DNA from: Hyphomonadaceae bacterium
GTDB taxonomy: Bacteria > Pseudomonadota > Alphaproteobacteria > Caulobacterales > Hyphomonadaceae
Assembly (NCBI GenBank): GCA_024742355.1
Contig: JANSYM010000008.1
Coordinates: 62,001 to 126,000 of the forward strand
Direction of reading: 5' to 3'
Length of the DNA stretch: 64,000 bases
Each line of letters starts with the position of its first letter. The stretch's first letter is position 1. Under the pieces are notes generated by a model. That model had not been told where the DNA came from. It did no database searches and saw only the letters and a list, made by a program, of their open reading frames with translations. Below, piece by piece: positions 12,798 to 21,041 of the stretch. A program made the translations under genes and the position numbers.

Positions 12798-14456
12798 CTA
12801 TTTTGACTCGGCAATAAATGCGCCCAGTTGGATGGGCGCGACGCCCCCTTGCAGGAATGGATCGAGCGCACGGACCTTGGTGCAATCAAATCCATCATCT
12901 GGAAACGCCTCGAGCTCATTCTCGCGCATCCAACCCAGCCACTCGACCAATTCAGTCGATTCATAAACGATGGAAGAGTCAGCCTGGGATTTCGGCGCAA
13001 CGTTGAATCGGTTGTCGAGTTGGCGCCAACTCAGGAACGGATTAATGAGCCAAATCCGATCGGCCGCCAGATGGTCGATTGTCGGCTCCGTCATGCAGGC
13101 GGCGCGTTCGACGATCGCCCAACGCTGATCCTGCAATCCGTACGCTTGTCGATACAACAAATAGGGTGGCAGCGACCAGCGCGTCAGCAGGACCACATCT
13201 TGCTCAGTGACGTGTTCGGAGATCGTGGCAAGCTCGTTGGAAATGTCGCGGTTCGATTGGTTCGGCGCAAACGTGCTCTCGTAAGCGTAGTTAGCCGCCG
13301 AACCAAGGCTCATAAACACCACGGCGCCGGCGAGTATTACCGGCACAGATCCTTTCGCCTCCTGCATCAAACGCTCCAGCGCGAAGGCCGCCAGCAGGAT
13401 TATGATCGGCACCATGTACAGCATCAGTCGCGCCATGACCGGGTAGAGTTGAGCCATGGACAACACCACGGCGATAACTGGCGGCGCCAGACAAAACCCG
13501 GCCAGCCAGACTTTTTTCCGAAGCATGATGACGGCACCGCAAATGGCCAGGAAGATCATGAAGAACGAGGATTGCAGGCCAAACCAATCTGCAAACAGGT
13601 CCTCGGCAACCGTCGGATACCAGGCAATATCGTCAATGCTGAGCGGCGGAAAAGGCGCGTAGAGGCGGCTGAAATAATTGCCCATGCCGCCATCGCTTAT
13701 TCCACTTGCGTCCACCTGCGTCTTGTAAATCGTCAATGACAGAATCAGGAACACCACCGCAGCGATCGCGGCACCTGCGCCCAGCATTAATACAGCGCGC
13801 ATGTCGCGCTTCAGGTATCTGTTCACAATCAGACATCCACCGATCGCACCGACAACGATTGGGGCGACGAATGTCGTGAAGCTGCCGATCAGGAACAATC
13901 CAACCAAAGTCGCGATCTGAGACACACTGAGGCGCTCCAGATCAATCAATTTCAAGGCCAACCAGGCGAGAACCAGCCACAGCAACATGTCGAAGCCATA
14001 TGGCTTGACCTCCGCTGAATAGTAGACCGCAGAAAAATTCCCCGCGAACACCGCGACGGCCAGAAACGCCGCGGGTTTGGAGAGTTGTGAAAGACAAATC
14101 TTATAGAACACCCAGAGGCCAGCCAAACCCGCAATCAATGCCGGGAATCGGCCGCCATAGGCGTAGTTTTTCGTCGTATCCACGAAAGCATCGGTAAGGA
14201 TAAGCCAACCGGGCGGCGCAACTTGCCGGAAATCCAATGGCGCGAACAGATCGGCGCCTGAGCGGCTCACCAGGTTGACCGTCAGCATTGCTTCATCGAG
14301 CCACAACATTCGCCCCAATCCGTAATGGATGAGGCGTAACAGGACACCCACGACAAGGGCAGCCGCCAGAAAATGCGACCAGTTCAAACCGCCAAGCTTC
14401 GCCTGCAGCGAACCAAGCACGCCTGATCCTTCCGTTATATTCGGCATTTTCCCCAT
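12798..14456 (-). CDS. ArnT/PMT-like polytopic glycosyltransferase (GT-C fold)
   Basis: Membrane protein of about 552 aa with roughly ten or more hydrophobic segments. Its acidic first periplasmic loop 'LWLDEAMLTVN' corresponds to the Asp-Glu motif of GT39/GT83 (PMT and ArnT) enzymes, which use polyprenyl-phosphate sugars on the periplasmic side. The C-terminal part is soluble with little resemblance to anything I know. The start is unsettled between GTG 14477, ATG 14456 and ATG 14447; none has an ideal ribosome site. Unlike most neighbours it has no sigma-54-like site upstream. It could use the sugar lipid made by the GT2 at 7933. That link is inferred. Confidence 0.75.
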   Translation of the reverse strand: MGKMPNITEGSGVLGSLQAKLGGLNWSHFLAAALVVGVLLRLIHYGLGRMLWLDEAMLTVNLVSRSGADLFAPLDFRQVAPPGWLILTDAFVDTTKNYAYGGRFPALIAGLAGLWVFYKICLSQLSKPAAFLAVAVFAGNFSAVYYSAEVKPYGFDMLLWLVLAWLALKLIDLERLSVSQIATLVGLFLIGSFTTFVAPIVVGAIGGCLIVNRYLKRDMRAVLMLGAGAAIAAVVFLILSLTIYKTQVDASGISDGGMGNYFSRLYAPFPPLSIDDIAWYPTVAEDLFADWFGLQSSFFMIFLAICGAVIMLRKKVWLAGFCLAPPVIAVVLSMAQLYPVMARLMLYMVPIIILLAAFALERLMQEAKGSVPVILAGAVVFMSLGSAANYAYESTFAPNQSNRDISNELATISEHVTEQDVVLLTRWSLPPYLLYRQAYGLQDQRWAIVERAACMTEPTIDHLAADRIWLINPFLSWRQLDNRFNVAPKSQADSSIVYESTELVEWLGWMRENELEAFPDDGFDCTKVRALDPFLQGGVAPIQLGAFIAESK

Positions 14457-14564
14457 CCGCAGCTGGTGCCCCTGCACTATTTGCAGGCAATCACACGGAT
14501 TTCAAGCTGCCACAAAGCGGACGCATCTTGCAAGCAAACAGTAATAAAGATTGCGAATCCGGCC

Positions 14565-15542
14565 TCAGAACCCGCTGACTCGTTCTACCAGCCAGATCGT
14601 CCCAGAAATTCCGACCAGATAAGCCCCTGCGGTTTTACTGAAGGCGAGCCCTCGATGAATGACGCGGCTCAGCAGGAATGCGCCCCCCAGCAAGGTCAGA
14701 ACGAACAGGACCTGCCCCAGTTCAACGCCAAGATTGAACAAGAGCAACGCCCAGACTTCCTGATTCTGGGGTAATCCGATATCAGCCAACGCGCCTGCGA
14801 AGCCGAAGCCATGGATCAATCCAAATCCAAATGCGATGAGCCAGGGGAACTGACTGGTCAGGGACGCCCCCCCGCGCTGAACCGTAATCGCTTCACGGGC
14901 GAGGAGGATGAGACTGAGTGCGATGACCGCTTCGACGGGCGGCCCTGGAAGCGTCACCCCTGCGAGCGTCGACAGGCCGAGCGTGATCGAATGCGCGACC
15001 GTGAATGCGGTCACCGTCAGCAGTAATTGGCGAGGGCGCACAAGGAGGCAAAGTCCGAGGACAAACAATAGGTGATCATAGCCAAACAGGATATGATCTA
15101 CGCCTATTCTCAAATAGGCGAAGAGCGGCGCGCTCGGATTCGTTTTATCGAGTTCGAACGACGCTGCTGCCGGTTTCAACACGACCGAAAGATGGTCGCC
15201 ATTGAGGCGGTGGATCTGTACGAAGACATCGGTCAAGGTGCGGTCGAGACCAGCAATTCGAATTTCGCCCTGATCCAGCGCACAGGTCAGCGTCCAGCGT
15301 GACACGACAGCGCCCGCAGCGCCTTCAAGGGTGACCGGCGTTCCTTCACAGCCGTCCGGAAAGATCGGATCGAGTTTCAGCCGACGCCCATCCTTGATCG
15401 GCTGTTTCCACACGACCTGGAACTGACCAGTTTCAATTTCAGTCAGTTCCAGGAAGGCTGGATTGACTTCATGCGCGGCCGCCGGACGCGGCAACCCGGC
15501 CACAATGAACATGGCAATCAGAAGCACAAACAGACATTTCAA
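14565..15542 (-). CDS. HupE/UreJ-family membrane protein with exported N-terminal domain
   Basis: Protein of 325 aa with a signal peptide ('LFVLLIAMFIVAGLPRPAAA'), about 140 residues of predicted periplasmic beta-rich domain, and then a HupE/UreJ_2-type membrane domain of about six helices. The family's metal-like motif H-x5-DH is present ('DHILFGYDHLLF'), as are 'FTVAHSITLGLS' and 'IHGFGFAGAL'. HupE/UreJ proteins are known or proposed nickel/cobalt permeases, but this version has no hydrogenase or urease nearby. Translation starts at a TTG overlapping the upstream PPIase stop (TTGA). It is the last gene of a DUF3604-PPIase-HupE unit, so it may deliver a metal or move a product for that system. 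Confidence 0.8.
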   Translation of the reverse strand: MKCLFVLLIAMFIVAGLPRPAAAHEVNPAFLELTEIETGQFQVVWKQPIKDGRRLKLDPIFPDGCEGTPVTLEGAAGAVVSRWTLTCALDQGEIRIAGLDRTLTDVFVQIHRLNGDHLSVVLKPAAASFELDKTNPSAPLFAYLRIGVDHILFGYDHLLFVLGLCLLVRPRQLLLTVTAFTVAHSITLGLSTLAGVTLPGPPVEAVIALSLILLAREAITVQRGGASLTSQFPWLIAFGFGLIHGFGFAGALADIGLPQNQEVWALLLFNLGVELGQVLFVLTLLGGAFLLSRVIHRGLAFSKTAGAYLVGISGTIWLVERVSGF

Positions 15543-16372
15543 TTGCTGTCGACGCCTTCAATCACGATGTCATACTTTTCAACAATGGCATTGATCTCTT
15601 CGGCCGTGCGTCGTCGTTGCTCTGTTTCCGTCCAGTCTTGCACGACTGCGGAGCGCACTTCAGCAAGTTCCGGCATCCGGGCGTCAGAGCGCTGATTGAT
15701 ACGTACCAAATGCGTGCCGAGCGCTGAACGCACAGGGCCTTGCCAGGTGCCGTCGGCGGTCTCGGAGAGGGCAGCGAGCTCGACCGCGAATTGTCCACCA
15801 AACAGACGTATAATCTCGCGCTCCGGCAGTTCGGCATATCGCCGCTGCAGCATGAACGGATCCCCTTGCCCGCGCCAATCTGTCTCGGACGCGTCGTTCA
15901 GGCTCGCCAGTATCCCGGAAATGCGCGGATCGTCGCCGTCCGAGAAGAATACATGATCAAAGGATAGGCGAAGCGGCTGTTCAAACCGTTCCGCATGCGC
16001 TTGCAGCCAGGCGTCGAGCACCTCATCAGACGGCGGGTCGACCTGCCCAAGATCAGACAGCATGAATGTCATTTTCTGCGCCAGACGGCGCTGCACCACG
16101 GTGTCGTCTTCGGCCATGCCAAGCTGGCGCGCTTCACGAGCGAGGGCTTCCTGCTGGATCTGATCGGTGACAATCGCGCGCATATCCTGCTCGGTGGGCA
16201 AGGCGCCTGCCTCGACCGCGTAAAGCGACGCGAGACGTTCCAAATCAGCCTGGGTGACAACGATCGTGCGCTCAGCGGATTGCCGCTCAGCCGTCACCCA
16301 TTGGTAGACGCCGAAAATGACGACCGCCAGCAGAATAAAATGAACCAGCGGTTCGCGTACGAGTTTCGTCAT
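15539..16372 (-). CDS. Membrane-anchored parvulin-type peptidylprolyl isomerase
   Basis: Protein of 277 aa with one N-terminal membrane anchor ('VHFILLAVVIFGVYQWV'), a SurA-like chaperone region (residues about 35-130) and a C-terminal parvulin-like domain ending 'ALGTHLVRINQRSDARMPEL'. It most resembles the PpiC/SurA group that helps exported proteins fold. The parvulin core looks degenerate around 'GGQFAVELAALSETADGTW', so chaperone rather than isomerase activity is possible. Its ATG follows directly on the stop of the DUF3604 lipoprotein gene (TAA then ATG), and it overlaps the HupE-like gene. This suggests a dedicated folding factor for these exported proteins. Confidence 0.8.
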   Translation of the reverse strand: MTKLVREPLVHFILLAVVIFGVYQWVTAERQSAERTIVVTQADLERLASLYAVEAGALPTEQDMRAIVTDQIQQEALAREARQLGMAEDDTVVQRRLAQKMTFMLSDLGQVDPPSDEVLDAWLQAHAERFEQPLRLSFDHVFFSDGDDPRISGILASLNDASETDWRGQGDPFMLQRRYAELPEREIIRLFGGQFAVELAALSETADGTWQGPVRSALGTHLVRINQRSDARMPELAEVRSAVVQDWTETEQRRRTAEEINAIVEKYDIVIEGVDSN

Positions 16373-18277
16373 TTAGTTACCAGGCGTGTACCAGATCGGA
16401 GATGTATATGCCCGCTCTTGCAGGGTCAGCGGGACATCCGGACGCGGAGGTGTGCCGGCGGCCAATGCTTCCCAGGTTGACCAGCGACAAGTCGGGTTTT
16501 CGAGCACCCGCACATAATAGCTGGCGCGCTCGGACGCGTCGAAGCTCGGATCGCTCCACACGGTCTTCAGCTCAGCGGCGCCTTCGCCCGTCGGCGCACA
16601 CGTGGTCAGATCAACCCCTGCCCCATTGTCCGGACAGCGATGGGTGTCTGGATCAGGCGCGCCAGTATGACAGGCAACATCAAAGACCTGCTCTGAGCCA
16701 CTCGTCACTTTCACAACCTGCGCGCGTTGGAGCGGCGCTGCATTCGGGTCTTGCTGGGCCCAAACCAGGAAGGACGGCGCGCGGCCATCGCCAATCAGGT
16801 CGCCGCCCATCGTGACCCCTTGTGCGTAGGCCTTGCCAGCGAGGTTGGCATCATTTTCCATACCGTCCTCGAAATCGAAGCTGGCGAAAAAGCGTACTTT
16901 CATGCGCGGACCTGTGGTCGCAAATGTTTCCTTGCGGCGGAACGCATCGAAGATTGAATCCCGGGTGTTCTCTTCAGCCCAGACGCCGGTCAAGCCAGAT
17001 GCCGACCAGCGCGAGAACCATTCGGTCGCGTTTTGTGTTTGCTGGTTTACCGGTTGATCTTCCCAGCTCTTCTCTGGGTCCACAGGCACGGAACCTCGAT
17101 TGATTGGCAGACCATCGACAATGCCGACTTTCGACCAGTAATCATTCTCGGCATAAGCACCGCCCACGACGTGACTGTCGGAAGCCGCCACCAGGCCGAA
17201 TTTGAACGGGTTGAACCCGTCTTCCTCTTCCAGTTTCAGGCCGAGCCCGTAAGCTTCGCGGACATAGCTCCCATTGGTCGCCGAAACGTCATACGAGCCG
17301 AGCAGGCGTGTATAGATCTCGAAATCGGCCCACTCATCATTTGGCGACAGGTCTGGGTGAGTCTCTGACGTGCCCTTCACCTGGGTGACTTCGACCAGCG
17401 GCTCATTGCGCATGCGTTGTTCGGCATATTCAGCGCTTAGCGGCGCCCCATCATAAGTTTCCAGTTTGAACATCTGGCCGTCGGACACATTCGGGTTATG
17501 CGGCACGGCGATCGATTCGATGCCTTCCTCGCGCTGCGCATCCATCCAGTCCCAGAGGTCTTCCGGATTGGTCGAATCGAGGGTCGAGAATGCCCGCAAG
17601 GGCGCTGCGCCCCGGAAGAAGACATTGCGGTGCAGGTTGCCGCCACCAAATGTACCATCGTCGCTATTGGTTGTGACAGAAGTGTATTCGTATGCTGCAA
17701 ATGTGGTGAACACGCCCGGTTCGTTGTGGCGCGCGGCAGCTTCGACATTCTCCAGCCAGATCGAATTGATCAGATGCTGATCAAACATGTCTTCAATCTT
17801 CTCACCAGAGCGCACGGAGGCACCAACGCCCTGGAAGGCTGCGGTGATCTTGACAGGATCGGTCGAGAACATGTCCTTTGACCGCGGAAGCTCGCTGAGC
17901 TCGGTGCCAGGCGTATTCATCGCGGGGAGAATGCCGAGATATTCCGCATGATCGGTCACCGCGTAGAAATCGAGCGGACCACCGGCAATCGTCATGTCAA
18001 ATCCGGACGGGTGCTGCACGGTTTCGCCTTTGGCGAAGCGATAGGCGTCATCGGCTGTGCGGCGGACATTGAAGATATACGCATCGAAACTGTTACGCGT
18101 GTGAATGTGCAGGTCGCCAAAATAGGCATTTCGCGTCACCGCGTAATCTGGAGCGGAAGCGGTTGCCGCCGGAGCGGTGTCAGCAGTGGCCGTCTCCTGA
18201 GACCCCGTATCATTCGTTCCACAAGCTGCTAGTGCGGCGGCGAGCGCCAGCGTTGAAACTGTGCGTAAGGTGTTCAT
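16373..18277 (-). CDS. DUF3604 lipoprotein, PHP-like metallohydrolase candidate (copy 1)
   Basis: Lipoprotein of 634 aa. The signal peptide ends in a lipobox ('ALAAALAAC'), then a short linker rich in Ala and Thr. The DUF3604 domain opens with 'YFGDLHIHTRNSFDAY', carrying the HxH typical of PHP-type metal sites, and continues with 'AVTDHAEYLG', 'VPHNPN' and 'AASDSHVVGG'. Together these give the His/Asp set expected of a multi-metal phosphoesterase-like enzyme. Substrates of DUF3604 proteins are not known to me. A GGGAGG site precedes the ATG. It leads the unit with the PPIase and HupE-like genes and diverges from a Crp/Fnr regulator across a palindrome-bearing gap. It is paralogous to the gene at 19146. 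Confidence 0.87.
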   Translation of the reverse strand: MNTLRTVSTLALAAALAACGTNDTGSQETATADTAPAATASAPDYAVTRNAYFGDLHIHTRNSFDAYIFNVRRTADDAYRFAKGETVQHPSGFDMTIAGGPLDFYAVTDHAEYLGILPAMNTPGTELSELPRSKDMFSTDPVKITAAFQGVGASVRSGEKIEDMFDQHLINSIWLENVEAAARHNEPGVFTTFAAYEYTSVTTNSDDGTFGGGNLHRNVFFRGAAPLRAFSTLDSTNPEDLWDWMDAQREEGIESIAVPHNPNVSDGQMFKLETYDGAPLSAEYAEQRMRNEPLVEVTQVKGTSETHPDLSPNDEWADFEIYTRLLGSYDVSATNGSYVREAYGLGLKLEEEDGFNPFKFGLVAASDSHVVGGAYAENDYWSKVGIVDGLPINRGSVPVDPEKSWEDQPVNQQTQNATEWFSRWSASGLTGVWAEENTRDSIFDAFRRKETFATTGPRMKVRFFASFDFEDGMENDANLAGKAYAQGVTMGGDLIGDGRAPSFLVWAQQDPNAAPLQRAQVVKVTSGSEQVFDVACHTGAPDPDTHRCPDNGAGVDLTTCAPTGEGAAELKTVWSDPSFDASERASYYVRVLENPTCRWSTWEALAAGTPPRPDVPLTLQERAYTSPIWYTPGN

Positions 18278-18329
18278 GGTTTCCTCCCGTGCAAGCCTGC
18301 GCGCAGCTCGCCTGTTTTCCCATTCTTCT

Positions 18330-18344
18330 GAGCTGTATCAGCTC
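18330..18344. promoter_or_regulatory. Palindrome between DUF3604 copy 1 and the Crp/Fnr gene
   Basis: GAGCTG-TAT-CAGCTC is a perfect inverted repeat in the 105-base divergent gap. A second, outer pair CATTCTT (18321-18327) and AAGAATG (18354-18360) brackets it. The position suits an operator for the neighbouring regulator, but the sequence is not the textbook CRP or FNR site. Confidence 0.45.
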
Positions 18345-18382
18345 GTCTTGAGAAAGAATGTCAAAAATGCAACATTTCGGGC

Positions 18383-19057
18383 ATGTTTGATTTTGCTCGA
18401 TTTCAGGCCACGCCTTTTTTTGATCTTTTGCCACAAGATTGTGTGGCGCGCCTGCGAACAGAGGGACATCGCCGAACCCTTTCGGATGGCCAATACGTGC
18501 ACAGCCGCGGCGATGACAATCCCGGAATATCCGTCATCGAGGATGGCGCCGCGCAAGCTGGCATATATAGCGCTGATGGCAGTTTTGTTCTGACCTCGTA
18601 CATCGGACCAGGACATACGTTTGGTGACTTTACCGTGTTCACCAATCTGCCGCGCACACACGATATCTCTGCGGTCGGGCCAACCACGATCCTGGACGTA
18701 CCAGCGAGCCGGTTCAAAGCCCTCTGCGATCAGGATCCGCGCTATATGCAAGCCCTGCTGCAGACAACGCTGATGCGCTCGCACCTGATCCTGGAAATGC
18801 TGCACGCTGTCCGCAGCTTGCCTCTGGTGCCGCGCGTGGCGAAATTTCTGCTCATTCTGGCGCCCGGCGGACCAAATGCGCCAACCTTGCGCTTTCGCCA
18901 GACAGACCTCGCATCAACGCTCGGCGTGTCGCGCGCCTCGATGAATCGCGCGCTGTCGAAACTGGAGACCAGATCGCTCGTCGACCGAGGTTATGGCCAC
19001 GTCAAAATCCGTGATCGACAGGCCCTTGCGACATGGTTGAACGCGCAGGAATCCTGA
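18383..19057 (+). CDS. Crp/Fnr-family transcriptional regulator
   Basis: Regulator of 224 aa with an N-terminal cyclic-nucleotide-binding-like beta-barrel (residues about 5-120, including 'GHTFGDFTVFTNLPRTHD') and a C-terminal winged helix with recognition region 'TLGVSRASMNRALSKLE'. The FNR cysteine cluster is absent, so it is not an Fe-S oxygen sensor. The phosphate-binding cassette is poorly conserved, so a ligand other than cAMP, or none, is possible. It diverges from the DUF3604-PPIase-HupE unit and precedes the second DUF3604 gene on the same strand, which makes it the likely local regulator of both. The ribosome site is weak. Confidence 0.87.
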   Translation: MFDFARFQATPFFDLLPQDCVARLRTEGHRRTLSDGQYVHSRGDDNPGISVIEDGAAQAGIYSADGSFVLTSYIGPGHTFGDFTVFTNLPRTHDISAVGPTTILDVPASRFKALCDQDPRYMQALLQTTLMRSHLILEMLHAVRSLPLVPRVAKFLLILAPGGPNAPTLRFRQTDLASTLGVSRASMNRALSKLETRSLVDRGYGHVKIRDRQALATWLNAQES

Positions 19058-19145
19058 CCGCTCGCGGTGGCCTATCCGAGGGTCAACGTGGACAAAGCCG
19101 AAATTGCGGCGCACTCTGAGCGCGGGAAGGAAACGGAGGGTCATC

Positions 19146-21041
19146 ATGAATCGCGTTGGAATTATCGCACTTTTGGGCATTGCCGCAGCTGGATGCAGTG
19201 CGCCGGAAACTGAAGTGGATACGGGCGAAGACACCGAAATTGTCGAAGGCGAAACGGTCGTCGAGCGAACCCCGACCAAGAACGCCTATTTCGGCGATTT
19301 GCACGTCCATACGCGCAACAGTTTTGATGCTTACATCTTCGCGACACGGCGCACACCGGATGATGCGTATCGCTTCGCCAAGGGTGAGGTCATTCCGCAT
19401 GATGCCGGCTATGAAATCCAGCTCGATGGCCCACCGCTGGACTTTCTCGCGGTGACCGATCACGGCGAATATCTCGGCGTGATCCCATTCATGGATGATC
19501 CGAACCACCCTCTGTCCAAGACCATGACCGCGCAGGCCGCGTTCGGCGATGATGCAGCGGCCTCGGCTGAAACCTTCCAGAATATCGGCATCTCTTTCGT
19601 CATCGGACAACCGATCGAAGAGATTCGCGACCAGGAACATATGAACCAGATCTGGGCCCAGACCATCAATGCTGCCGAGCGCCACAATGATCCGGGTACG
19701 TTCACGACTTTTGCCGGATATGAGTTCACAGCGATGACGATTGTCAGCCAGGAAGCTGGCGCTGCAGCCAACCTCCACCGCAACGTTATTTTCCGCGATG
19801 CAGCGCCCGACCAGGTCTTCTCGACCCTCGATTCGACCAATCCGGAAGACCTCTGGGCGTGGATGGACGGTCAACGTGAAGCCGGAATTGATGTGCTCGC
19901 CATCCCGCATAATTCAAACAGCTCAAATGGCGAGATGTTCGCGCTTCAGACCTATGATGGCGCGCCACTGACCGAGGACTATGCTGTCACCCGGCTGCGC
20001 AACGAGCCGATCGTCGAGATGACGCAGATCAAAGGCACATCGGAAACCCATCCCAGCCTGTCGCCAAATGACGAATGGGCGAATTTCGAACAGTATGACT
20101 ATTTTATCGGCAGCTCCGCAAAGTCGACCGTCAATGAGGGGGACTTTGTGCGTCCTTCGCTGGCCCGAGGCCTGGCGCTCGCTGAAAGCCTGGGCGCCAA
20201 TCCCTACGAGTTTGGCTTTATCGGTTCGAGTGACACCCATATTGCCGCGGCGACGCTGCGCGAGGACACACATTGGGGCAAGTTCCCGACCGATGGTGCC
20301 AATCCACAATCGCGCAGTTCAGTGCCGCCCGAGGGTTATACAGACTGGGCGGACGTGCCCAATGCAACCGACCGGCGCATCCTGACAGGGGCGAAATTCA
20401 GTGCTTCGGGCCTGGTGGGCGTCTGGGCCGAATCGAATACGCGCGACGACCTGTTTGACGGGATGCGCAACCGCGAAACATTCGGCACCTCCGGTCCGCG
20501 CATGAAAGTGCGCCTGTTTGCCGGCGACTATGATGCCAGCATTCTCGACGCGGCAGACCTGCTCGACCAAGCTTACGTGAACGGTGTCCCTATGGGCGGC
20601 AATCTCGTCACCTCTGAAGGCGAGGCACCAAGCCTGCTCGCCTGGGCTGTCCAAGACCCCCTGTCCGCGCCTTTGCAGAGGCTGCAGGTCATCAAGGTCT
20701 GGGCCGAGGATGGAGCTGCGCGTGAAGCCGTATACGATGTCGCTTGCTCGGATGGTAGCACGCCAGATCCGCAGACTCATCGGTGCGCCGATAATGGCGC
20801 ATCTGTAGATATTTCGACCTGTGCGACCGAGCCTGGCACCGGGTCCGGTGAACTCAAGGCCGTGTGGCAGGACCCGTCCTACGACCCGGACCAGGTCAGC
20901 GCCTATTATGTGCGCGTGCTCGAAAATCCGACGTGCCGCTGGAGCACCTGGGACGCGGTTCGCGCGGGGACGCCGCCGAATCCGAACCTGCCAACGACTT
21001 TGCAGGAACGGGCCTGGTCGTCACCAATCTGGGTCGACTGA
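19146..21041 (+). CDS. DUF3604 lipoprotein, PHP-like metallohydrolase candidate (copy 2)
   Basis: Lipoprotein of 631 aa and paralogue of the gene at 16373. Alignable motifs are 'YFGDLHVHTRNSFDAY', 'AVTDHGEYLG', 'IPHNSN', 'HPSLSPNDEWANFE' and 'GSSDTHIAA', so the metal-site residues are kept. The start at 19146 is preferred over 19104: it has a GGAGGG site five bases upstream and gives a proper lipoprotein signal ('GIIALLGIAAAGC'). An acidic linker follows the lipid cysteine, unlike the Ala/Thr linker of copy 1. It lies 88 bases after the Crp/Fnr gene. Two such paralogues flanking one regulator suggest related substrates or a division of labour. Function remains unknown. Confidence 0.87.
   Translation: MNRVGIIALLGIAAAGCSAPETEVDTGEDTEIVEGETVVERTPTKNAYFGDLHVHTRNSFDAYIFATRRTPDDAYRFAKGEVIPHDAGYEIQLDGPPLDFLAVTDHGEYLGVIPFMDDPNHPLSKTMTAQAAFGDDAAASAETFQNIGISFVIGQPIEEIRDQEHMNQIWAQTINAAERHNDPGTFTTFAGYEFTAMTIVSQEAGAAANLHRNVIFRDAAPDQVFSTLDSTNPEDLWAWMDGQREAGIDVLAIPHNSNSSNGEMFALQTYDGAPLTEDYAVTRLRNEPIVEMTQIKGTSETHPSLSPNDEWANFEQYDYFIGSSAKSTVNEGDFVRPSLARGLALAESLGANPYEFGFIGSSDTHIAAATLREDTHWGKFPTDGANPQSRSSVPPEGYTDWADVPNATDRRILTGAKFSASGLVGVWAESNTRDDLFDGMRNRETFGTSGPRMKVRLFAGDYDASILDAADLLDQAYVNGVPMGGNLVTSEGEAPSLLAWAVQDPLSAPLQRLQVIKVWAEDGAAREAVYDVACSDGSTPDPQTHRCADNGASVDISTCATEPGTGSGELKAVWQDPSYDPDQVSAYYVRVLENPTCRWSTWDAVRAGTPPNPNLPTTLQERAWSSPIWVD

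Follow-up and report, generated by a model that had tools for sequence, protein, structure and literature searches.

A conserved DUF3604-PPIase-HupE gene trio

What connects a DUF3604 lipoprotein to a peptidyl-prolyl isomerase (PPIase) and a HupE/UreJ_2 permease is the question raised by a locus in a 64,000-nucleotide stretch of DNA (hereafter the window) from a Hyphomonadaceae bacterium (GCA_024742355.1, contig JANSYM010000008.1, positions 62,001 to 126,000). Analysis of open reading frames and Pfam families showed that the window carries the three genes as one overlapping operon on the reverse strand, encoding DUF3604 lipoprotein 1 (DUF3604-1; 16373-18277; 634 amino acids; PF12228, E 5.8e-203), which has a signal peptide with the lipobox LAAC, a membrane-anchored, parvulin-type Rotamase_2 PPIase (15539-16372; 277 amino acids; PF13145, E 2.5e-8) and a HupE/UreJ_2 permease with an exported N-terminal beta domain (14565-15542; 325 amino acids; PF13795, E 3.9e-45). 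The DUF3604-1 stop abuts the PPIase start, and HupE, which has a TTG start, overlaps the PPIase stop by 4 bases. We propose, with a probability of about 0.5, that the PPIase and the two-domain HupE form a dedicated maturation pair for the exported DUF3604 hydrolase, the catalytic activity, the loading of metal, the folding of the client and the regulation being inferred.

The genes named by a first-pass annotation of this DNA (the abutting and overlapping trio, a divergent Crp/Fnr regulator and a second DUF3604 gene) were all recovered in place by open reading frame and Pfam analysis. Its placing of DUF3604 genes near PPIase and HupE genes in other marine bacteria also held, the PPIase and HupE being near-obligate partners of DUF3604 well outside marine bacteria. 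Restriction to close relatives, one of two refuting tests set beforehand, was not seen: the DUF3604-PPIase-HupE order was found in dozens of genera. The other, a failure of modelled metal ligands to converge on one site, was addressed at the level of sequence, the nine ligand positions being invariant in 143 of 143 sequences.

The nearest relatives of DUF3604 were sought in 85,462 species genomes, giving 80 loci that span Hyphomonadaceae, Sphingomonadaceae, other Caulobacterales, gammaproteobacteria and one Acidobacteriota bin. At these loci, 78 of 85 DUF3604 copies are next to a PPIase gene and 74 are next to both PPIase and HupE genes, and several of the exceptions sit at contig ends. When even samples by class and phylum were taken together with the loci of relatives, the trio was present at 29 of 50 DUF3604 copies; spread past Pseudomonadota is seen on single contigs only, such as L105. 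The trio also lies on annotated plasmids of Rhizobium, Sinorhizobium, Neorhizobium and Pseudoalteromonas, and the trio order is kept by 9 of 11 plasmid DUF3604 copies. All genes are on the same strand in 108 of 123 trios and are not in the other 15, indicating that the linkage outlasts rearrangement. Outside the trio, 15 of the 80 loci is the ceiling for any neighbour family; most such families reflect clade synteny, and none is shared between clades nearly as widely as the trio. In Rhizobium N324 the trio is immediately followed by two more short HupE/UreJ genes (L218:13154-14364), and extra HupE/UreJ genes adjoin it in Pseudoalteromonas. No description of the DUF3604-PPIase-HupE set was found in the literature searched, in agreement with the first-pass suggestion of an undescribed system. 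The three-gene unit is real, widespread and apparently undescribed, its parts being of known kinds and their combination new.

The PPIase-HupE pair depends on DUF3604

Presence and absence of the genes were compared in 41 relatives, the co-occurrence count that had been asked for at first pass. DUF3604 is present in 15 of these genomes. Of these 15, 14 have the two-domain HupE, counted where the alignment covers its full length, and 14 have the PPIase, counted above 180 bits, while neither occurs in any of the 26 genomes without DUF3604 (Fisher p = 4e-10, uncorrected for kinship); the lone exception, G015, is fragmentary. Within the window's own genus the pair was found in 11 of 12 genomes with DUF3604 and in 0 of 13 without, whereas short HupE proteins lacking the exported domain occur whether or not DUF3604 is present. 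The PPIase-HupE pair depends on DUF3604, and the difference between the two sets of relatives argues that it is not a general metal-uptake system merely neighbouring DUF3604. It is also very improbable that the trio is a chance assembly or a selfish operon with no shared function: although the trio travels on plasmids, such an origin is already contradicted by near-perfect co-presence across genomes and orders, non-adjacent and convergent arrangements included.

At least one two-domain HupE was found in 33 of 35 DUF3604 genomes, which hold 68 DUF3604 copies and 39 HupE genes in total (with ratios of, for example, 7:1, 4:1 and 3:1). The DUF3604 count is higher in 17 of these genomes, equal in 17 and lower in 1. 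With DUF3604 often outnumbering the PPIase-HupE pair, one pair appears to be shared among several copies. A third DUF3604 gene of the source genome (L003:1495-3417; C17:113958-115676) is solo, without PPIase or HupE, and is flanked by a short-chain dehydrogenase gene and a polyphosphate-kinase-2-like gene. A PPIase-HupE pair without DUF3604 in genome G400 (L288:7172-8991) is preceded by a gene for a 269-amino-acid exported protein resembling an outer-membrane transporter.

DUF3604 has the features of a PHP hydrolase

Searches of Pfam, NCBIfam and PDB sequences at ordinary thresholds gave no match that assigns DUF3604 a function; PDB sequence searches with the single sequence and with a profile returned no match, and in the literature searched DUF3604 appears only in a passing mention and PF12228 nowhere. 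The AlphaFold2 model of DUF3604-1 (pLDDT 89) comprises an exported PHP-fold domain followed by a C-terminal beta domain. Foldseek comparison of this model with the PDB ranked 3e38 first (E 2.5e-6). Chains A and B of this PHP-like two-domain protein were the only matches at E < 0.001, with modest TM-scores of 0.27 by query and 0.44 by target.

Nine ligand-type residues (H57, H59, D65, H110, E197, H216, H260, D367 and H369) are invariant in all 143 sequences of a DUF3604 alignment reaching down to 35% identity, and the PHP ligand series HxH, D/H, TDH, E, H, H, DxH is found in order. The nine positions match the pattern of YcdX, which binds three metals through nine ligands. In profile alignments, the GDLHIHT and TDH sequences of DUF3604 fall on metal motifs I and II of RNase AM and YcdX; these partners were chosen because an hhalign comparison with DnaE PHP domains was of no use, a recognisable HxH being present in only two fetched PHP loci. 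The HxH and DH motifs pointed out at first pass are thus present, the latter as TDH, and are joined by further ligand-type residues. An insert carries additional invariant polar residues (R288, E292, E296, Q299, K301, D314, E315 and R340), which may bind substrate, and the C-terminal domain has four cysteines, each in 104 of the 143 sequences, which fits disulphide formation in a protein that is exported.

As judged by the model, the motifs and the invariant ligand-type residues, DUF3604 is a PHP-fold hydrolase. It is exported and probably metal-dependent, given the PHP fold, the ligand-type residues and the lipobox, which supports the earlier idea of a metal-dependent hydrolase outside the cytoplasm. 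The nearest named family is CehA/McbA (NF038032), a weak match (E 0.0017) that covers the first motif and the stretch following motif IV; at 13.9-17.9 bits against a curated cut-off of 80, DUF3604 falls outside that family. Distant DUF3604-like proteins of approximately 760-820 amino acids (49-82 bits) are encoded at L175:9976-12300, L018:175-2457 and L019:1-2460. The L175 and L018 genes adjoin a diverged PPIase gene, in L175 with HupE also downstream, suggesting that the PPIase/HupE partnership predates the DUF3604 family proper.

A two-domain HupE permease and a membrane-anchored PPIase

HupE scored 153.8 bits against the PF13795 profile (cut-off 24.5) and its structure model has a pLDDT of 90; Pfam placed the permease in HupE families only, and not in TerC (PF03741). 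The membrane part contains an HX5DH motif (H150/D156/H157) together with H184, H244, N270 and E274 in 103 of 103 proteins, and also E204, which is not invariant. It is preceded by approximately 115 extra exported residues. This exported domain (residues 24-139; 15126-15473, reverse strand) begins at the predicted mature N-terminus, His24, straight after the predicted signal peptide (AAA/HE). With the cleavage site judged by eye, mature position 1 is His in 94 of the 103 proteins and Asp in 9.

The Foldseek search with the exported domain ranked the zinc protein ZrgA first (8ezw, E 8e-5) and the Ang-1 domain of the anglerase permeases fifth (9gce), the latter a weak match (E 0.13, prob 0.63), and a profile comparison with RbAng-1a (9GCE) gave no match up to E 10. 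Because of this lack of a sequence match, and because the neighbourhoods in the anglerase paper are without DUF3604 and PPIase, the exported domain of HupE is probably a branch separate from anglerase Ang-1.

The PPIase has one N-terminal membrane segment and scored 35.2 bits against the PPIC-type domain profile (cut-off 27). In 30 homologues H140 is nearly invariant and F195, G219 and H221 are invariant; H140, F195 and H221 plausibly correspond to Pin1 H59, F134 and H157, as judged from sequence conservation among these homologues.

A permease of this kind could also act in metal stress, with HupE sequestering or expelling excess metal and DUF3604 serving as an envelope stress hydrolase. A HupE/UreJ-like gene was the most induced gene in Sphingobium under nickel (PMC5557971), although that protein was not shown to be of the DUF3604-linked HupE type. 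Across our loci no further family recurs, metal-resistance genes included, and the heavy-metal P-type ATPase gene near a Pseudoalteromonas copy is a single case, so that we consider a stress role quite improbable.

Neighbours of solo DUF3604 copies

Pfam analysis of 88 neighbours of solo DUF3604 copies identified 4 TonB receptors and 3 short-chain dehydrogenases; the far control yielded acyl-coenzyme A dehydrogenases. The tally gave no substrate hint, and it settled neither of two readings, one of metal acquisition and one of catabolism.

For metal acquisition, DUF3604 would act in the periplasm on an organic complex that carries a metal and cleave it, the exported domain of HupE would catch the released ion and the permease would import it. 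HupE/UreJ proteins are known nickel importers, additional HupE/UreJ genes lie after or beside the trio in Rhizobium N324 and Pseudoalteromonas, TonB-dependent receptors are found near some loci, and the His1 domain of anglerases has been proposed to fish metal for uptake (PMC12537917). However, DUF3604 copies often exceed HupE, the solo copies are without common metal-related neighbours, and TonB receptors at 4 of 88 neighbours are too few for a pattern, making this explanation unlikely.

The catabolic reading, in which DUF3604 would hydrolyse an imported ester, amide or carbamate in the manner of CehA/McbA, with HupE providing product uptake or ion balance and the PPIase acting as a helper, has to accommodate the heterogeneous contexts of the solo copies. 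It also fits poorly with the invariant HupE residues, which are of the metal type (His/Asp/Glu), unlike those expected of an organic solute carrier; the first-pass idea that HupE takes up an organic product gained no support here. What speaks for catabolism is that CehA/McbA is the nearest named family, that its members are exported hydrolases, one of them with an adjacent TonB receptor (PMC8292978), and that DUF3604 of genome G021 sits between a TonB receptor and a coenzyme A-transferase. We regard it as improbable overall. The full row in G021 (L289:1801-10000), which is catabolic-looking, consists of PPIase, HupE, GntR regulator, TonB-dependent receptor, DUF3604 and class III coenzyme A-transferase genes.

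Proposed maturation of DUF3604

Under the proposed maturation by the PPIase-HupE pair, DUF3604 would be a lipid-anchored, exported PHP hydrolase needing several metal ions. The membrane-anchored PPIase would fold it on exit from the Sec channel, the exported domain of HupE would present its N-terminal His as a metal ligand, and HupE, by holding or moving a transition metal at the membrane, would allow the DUF3604 sites to be filled. One PPIase-HupE pair could serve several DUF3604 enzymes of differing substrates, probably esters, carbamates or phosphoesters, and in this clade the Crp/Fnr regulator would control the divergent promoter. A stricter version, in which the parvulin and the His1-domain permease form a station that exists only to complete one exported PHP hydrolase family, with one station serving several hydrolases per cell, is offered tentatively.

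Several points weigh against a maturation pair. Nickel transport by the HupE/UreJ proteins that have been characterised runs into the cytoplasm, which is the wrong direction for periplasmic loading unless metal passes straight from the exported domain to the enzyme. Nine HupE proteins have Asp, not His, at the mature N-terminus. Genomes G092 and G265 have a DUF3604 match and no two-domain HupE (the G265 match is split and lies outside the 35-genome count), G015 has fragments only, and in G400 the PPIase-HupE pair adjoins neither DUF3604 gene. Related genomes are not independent, so that the p-values overstate the association. There is a precedent in Bacillus, where enzymes exported through Sec receive their metal from TerC membrane proteins, which co-purify with PrsA, a foldase (PMC10550928). 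The LysE-superfamily paper covering TerC has no mention of HupE, and the parallel is therefore one of role only.

Beyond TerC of Bacillus, there are few answers to how Sec-exported metalloenzymes acquire the correct metal. If the maturation pair is real, metal supply for a periplasmic enzyme would be encoded together with that enzyme, DUF3604 would have its first role, and anglerase-type permeases would have a physiological client. The presence of the trio in genetically tractable Rhizobium, Sinorhizobium and Pseudoalteromonas makes the question directly testable.

Crp/Fnr regulator, second DUF3604 gene and flanking gene

The gene divergent from DUF3604-1 (18383-19057, forward strand) encodes a 224-amino-acid protein of the Crp/Fnr family, with a cyclic-nucleotide-binding fold (PF00027, E 2e-13) and a Crp-type helix-turn-helix (PF13545, E 7e-15); an N-terminal cysteine cluster is absent. 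The divergent promoter region contains a candidate operator, the palindrome AATGTC-N8-AACATT (18357-18376, strandless), which is the sole match in the window (0.01 expected), has only one counterpart elsewhere in the 3.46 Mb genome and is retained at every Crp-bearing locus whose region was scanned. Its rarity and conservation support a local Crp/Fnr switch. A perfect palindrome nearby, GAGCTG-TAT-CAGCTC (18330-18344), was rejected as an operator because it is not retained in relatives. A Crp/Fnr gene is found beside DUF3604 only in near relatives and is missing from most trio loci, making the regulator an accessory of this clade; the description of the module as having its own regulator is supported within that clade by the conserved palindrome and does not extend beyond it. 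Adenylate/guanylate cyclase genes lie near DUF3604 or PPIase-HupE genes in Rhizobium N324 (L218:6826-8619, divergent from DUF3604), Neorhizobium (L223:16253-17755) and genome G047 (L163:3906-5696), and are possibly linked to the cyclic nucleotide monophosphate-type regulator of the window.

Downstream of the regulator and co-directional with it is the gene for DUF3604 lipoprotein 2 (DUF3604-2; 19146-21041, forward strand; PF12228, E 1.5e-209; lipobox AAGC), which is 53% identical to DUF3604-1. From the sequence, ATG at 19146 is the likely start, rather than TTG at 19104. The second DUF3604 gene had been counted as part of the module; it is present here and is an optional component. On the other side, a gene for a glycosyltransferase-39-like membrane protein (12798-14477) adjoins the operon on the same strand, and this neighbour is retained in two relatives (L032 and L033), where it is convergent.

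Comparison with known systems

The HupE nickel permease of Rhizobium leguminosarum, encoded in hydrogenase operons, belongs like ours to the HupE/UreJ family and has an HX5DH motif, but serves a cytoplasmic nickel enzyme, whereas the enzyme linked to our HupE is exported. YcdX and RNase AM (rnm) of Escherichia coli share the DLHxHT and TDH PHP motifs with DUF3604; they are cytoplasmic and small, without its insert or C-terminal beta domain. CehA/McbA proteins are, like DUF3604, exported PHP-like hydrolases. Unlike them, DUF3604 contains a large insert in which further invariant residues lie (R288-R340), and it has PPIase-HupE partners, a pair that the available part of the CehA source (PMC8292978) does not describe.

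Anglerases, reported in October 2025, consist of Ang-1 or Ang-2 domains fused to HupE/UreJ-2 (PMC12537917, PDB 9GCE), and the Ang-1-type domain binds copper and nickel through His1 (PMC12537917). Both anglerases and our HupE have a signal peptide followed by a conserved His, a beta-sandwich domain and a HupE/UreJ-2 membrane part, and ZrgA is the nearest fold of both Ang-1 and our exported domain. They differ in the length of this domain (approximately 115 residues in ours, approximately 175 in Ang), in the presence of Asp at position 1 in some of our members, and in their neighbours, those named for anglerases being DUF4198, indigoidine A-like and PfkB, with DUF3604 and PPIase not among them. 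The same principle as proposed here, a membrane metal protein and a foldase that complete Sec-exported metalloenzymes, is represented by MeeF/MeeY and PrsA of Bacillus subtilis (PMC10550928). MeeF/MeeY belong to a different permease family, are general rather than dedicated and handle manganese, and their likeness to HupE is one of proposed role and not of descent.

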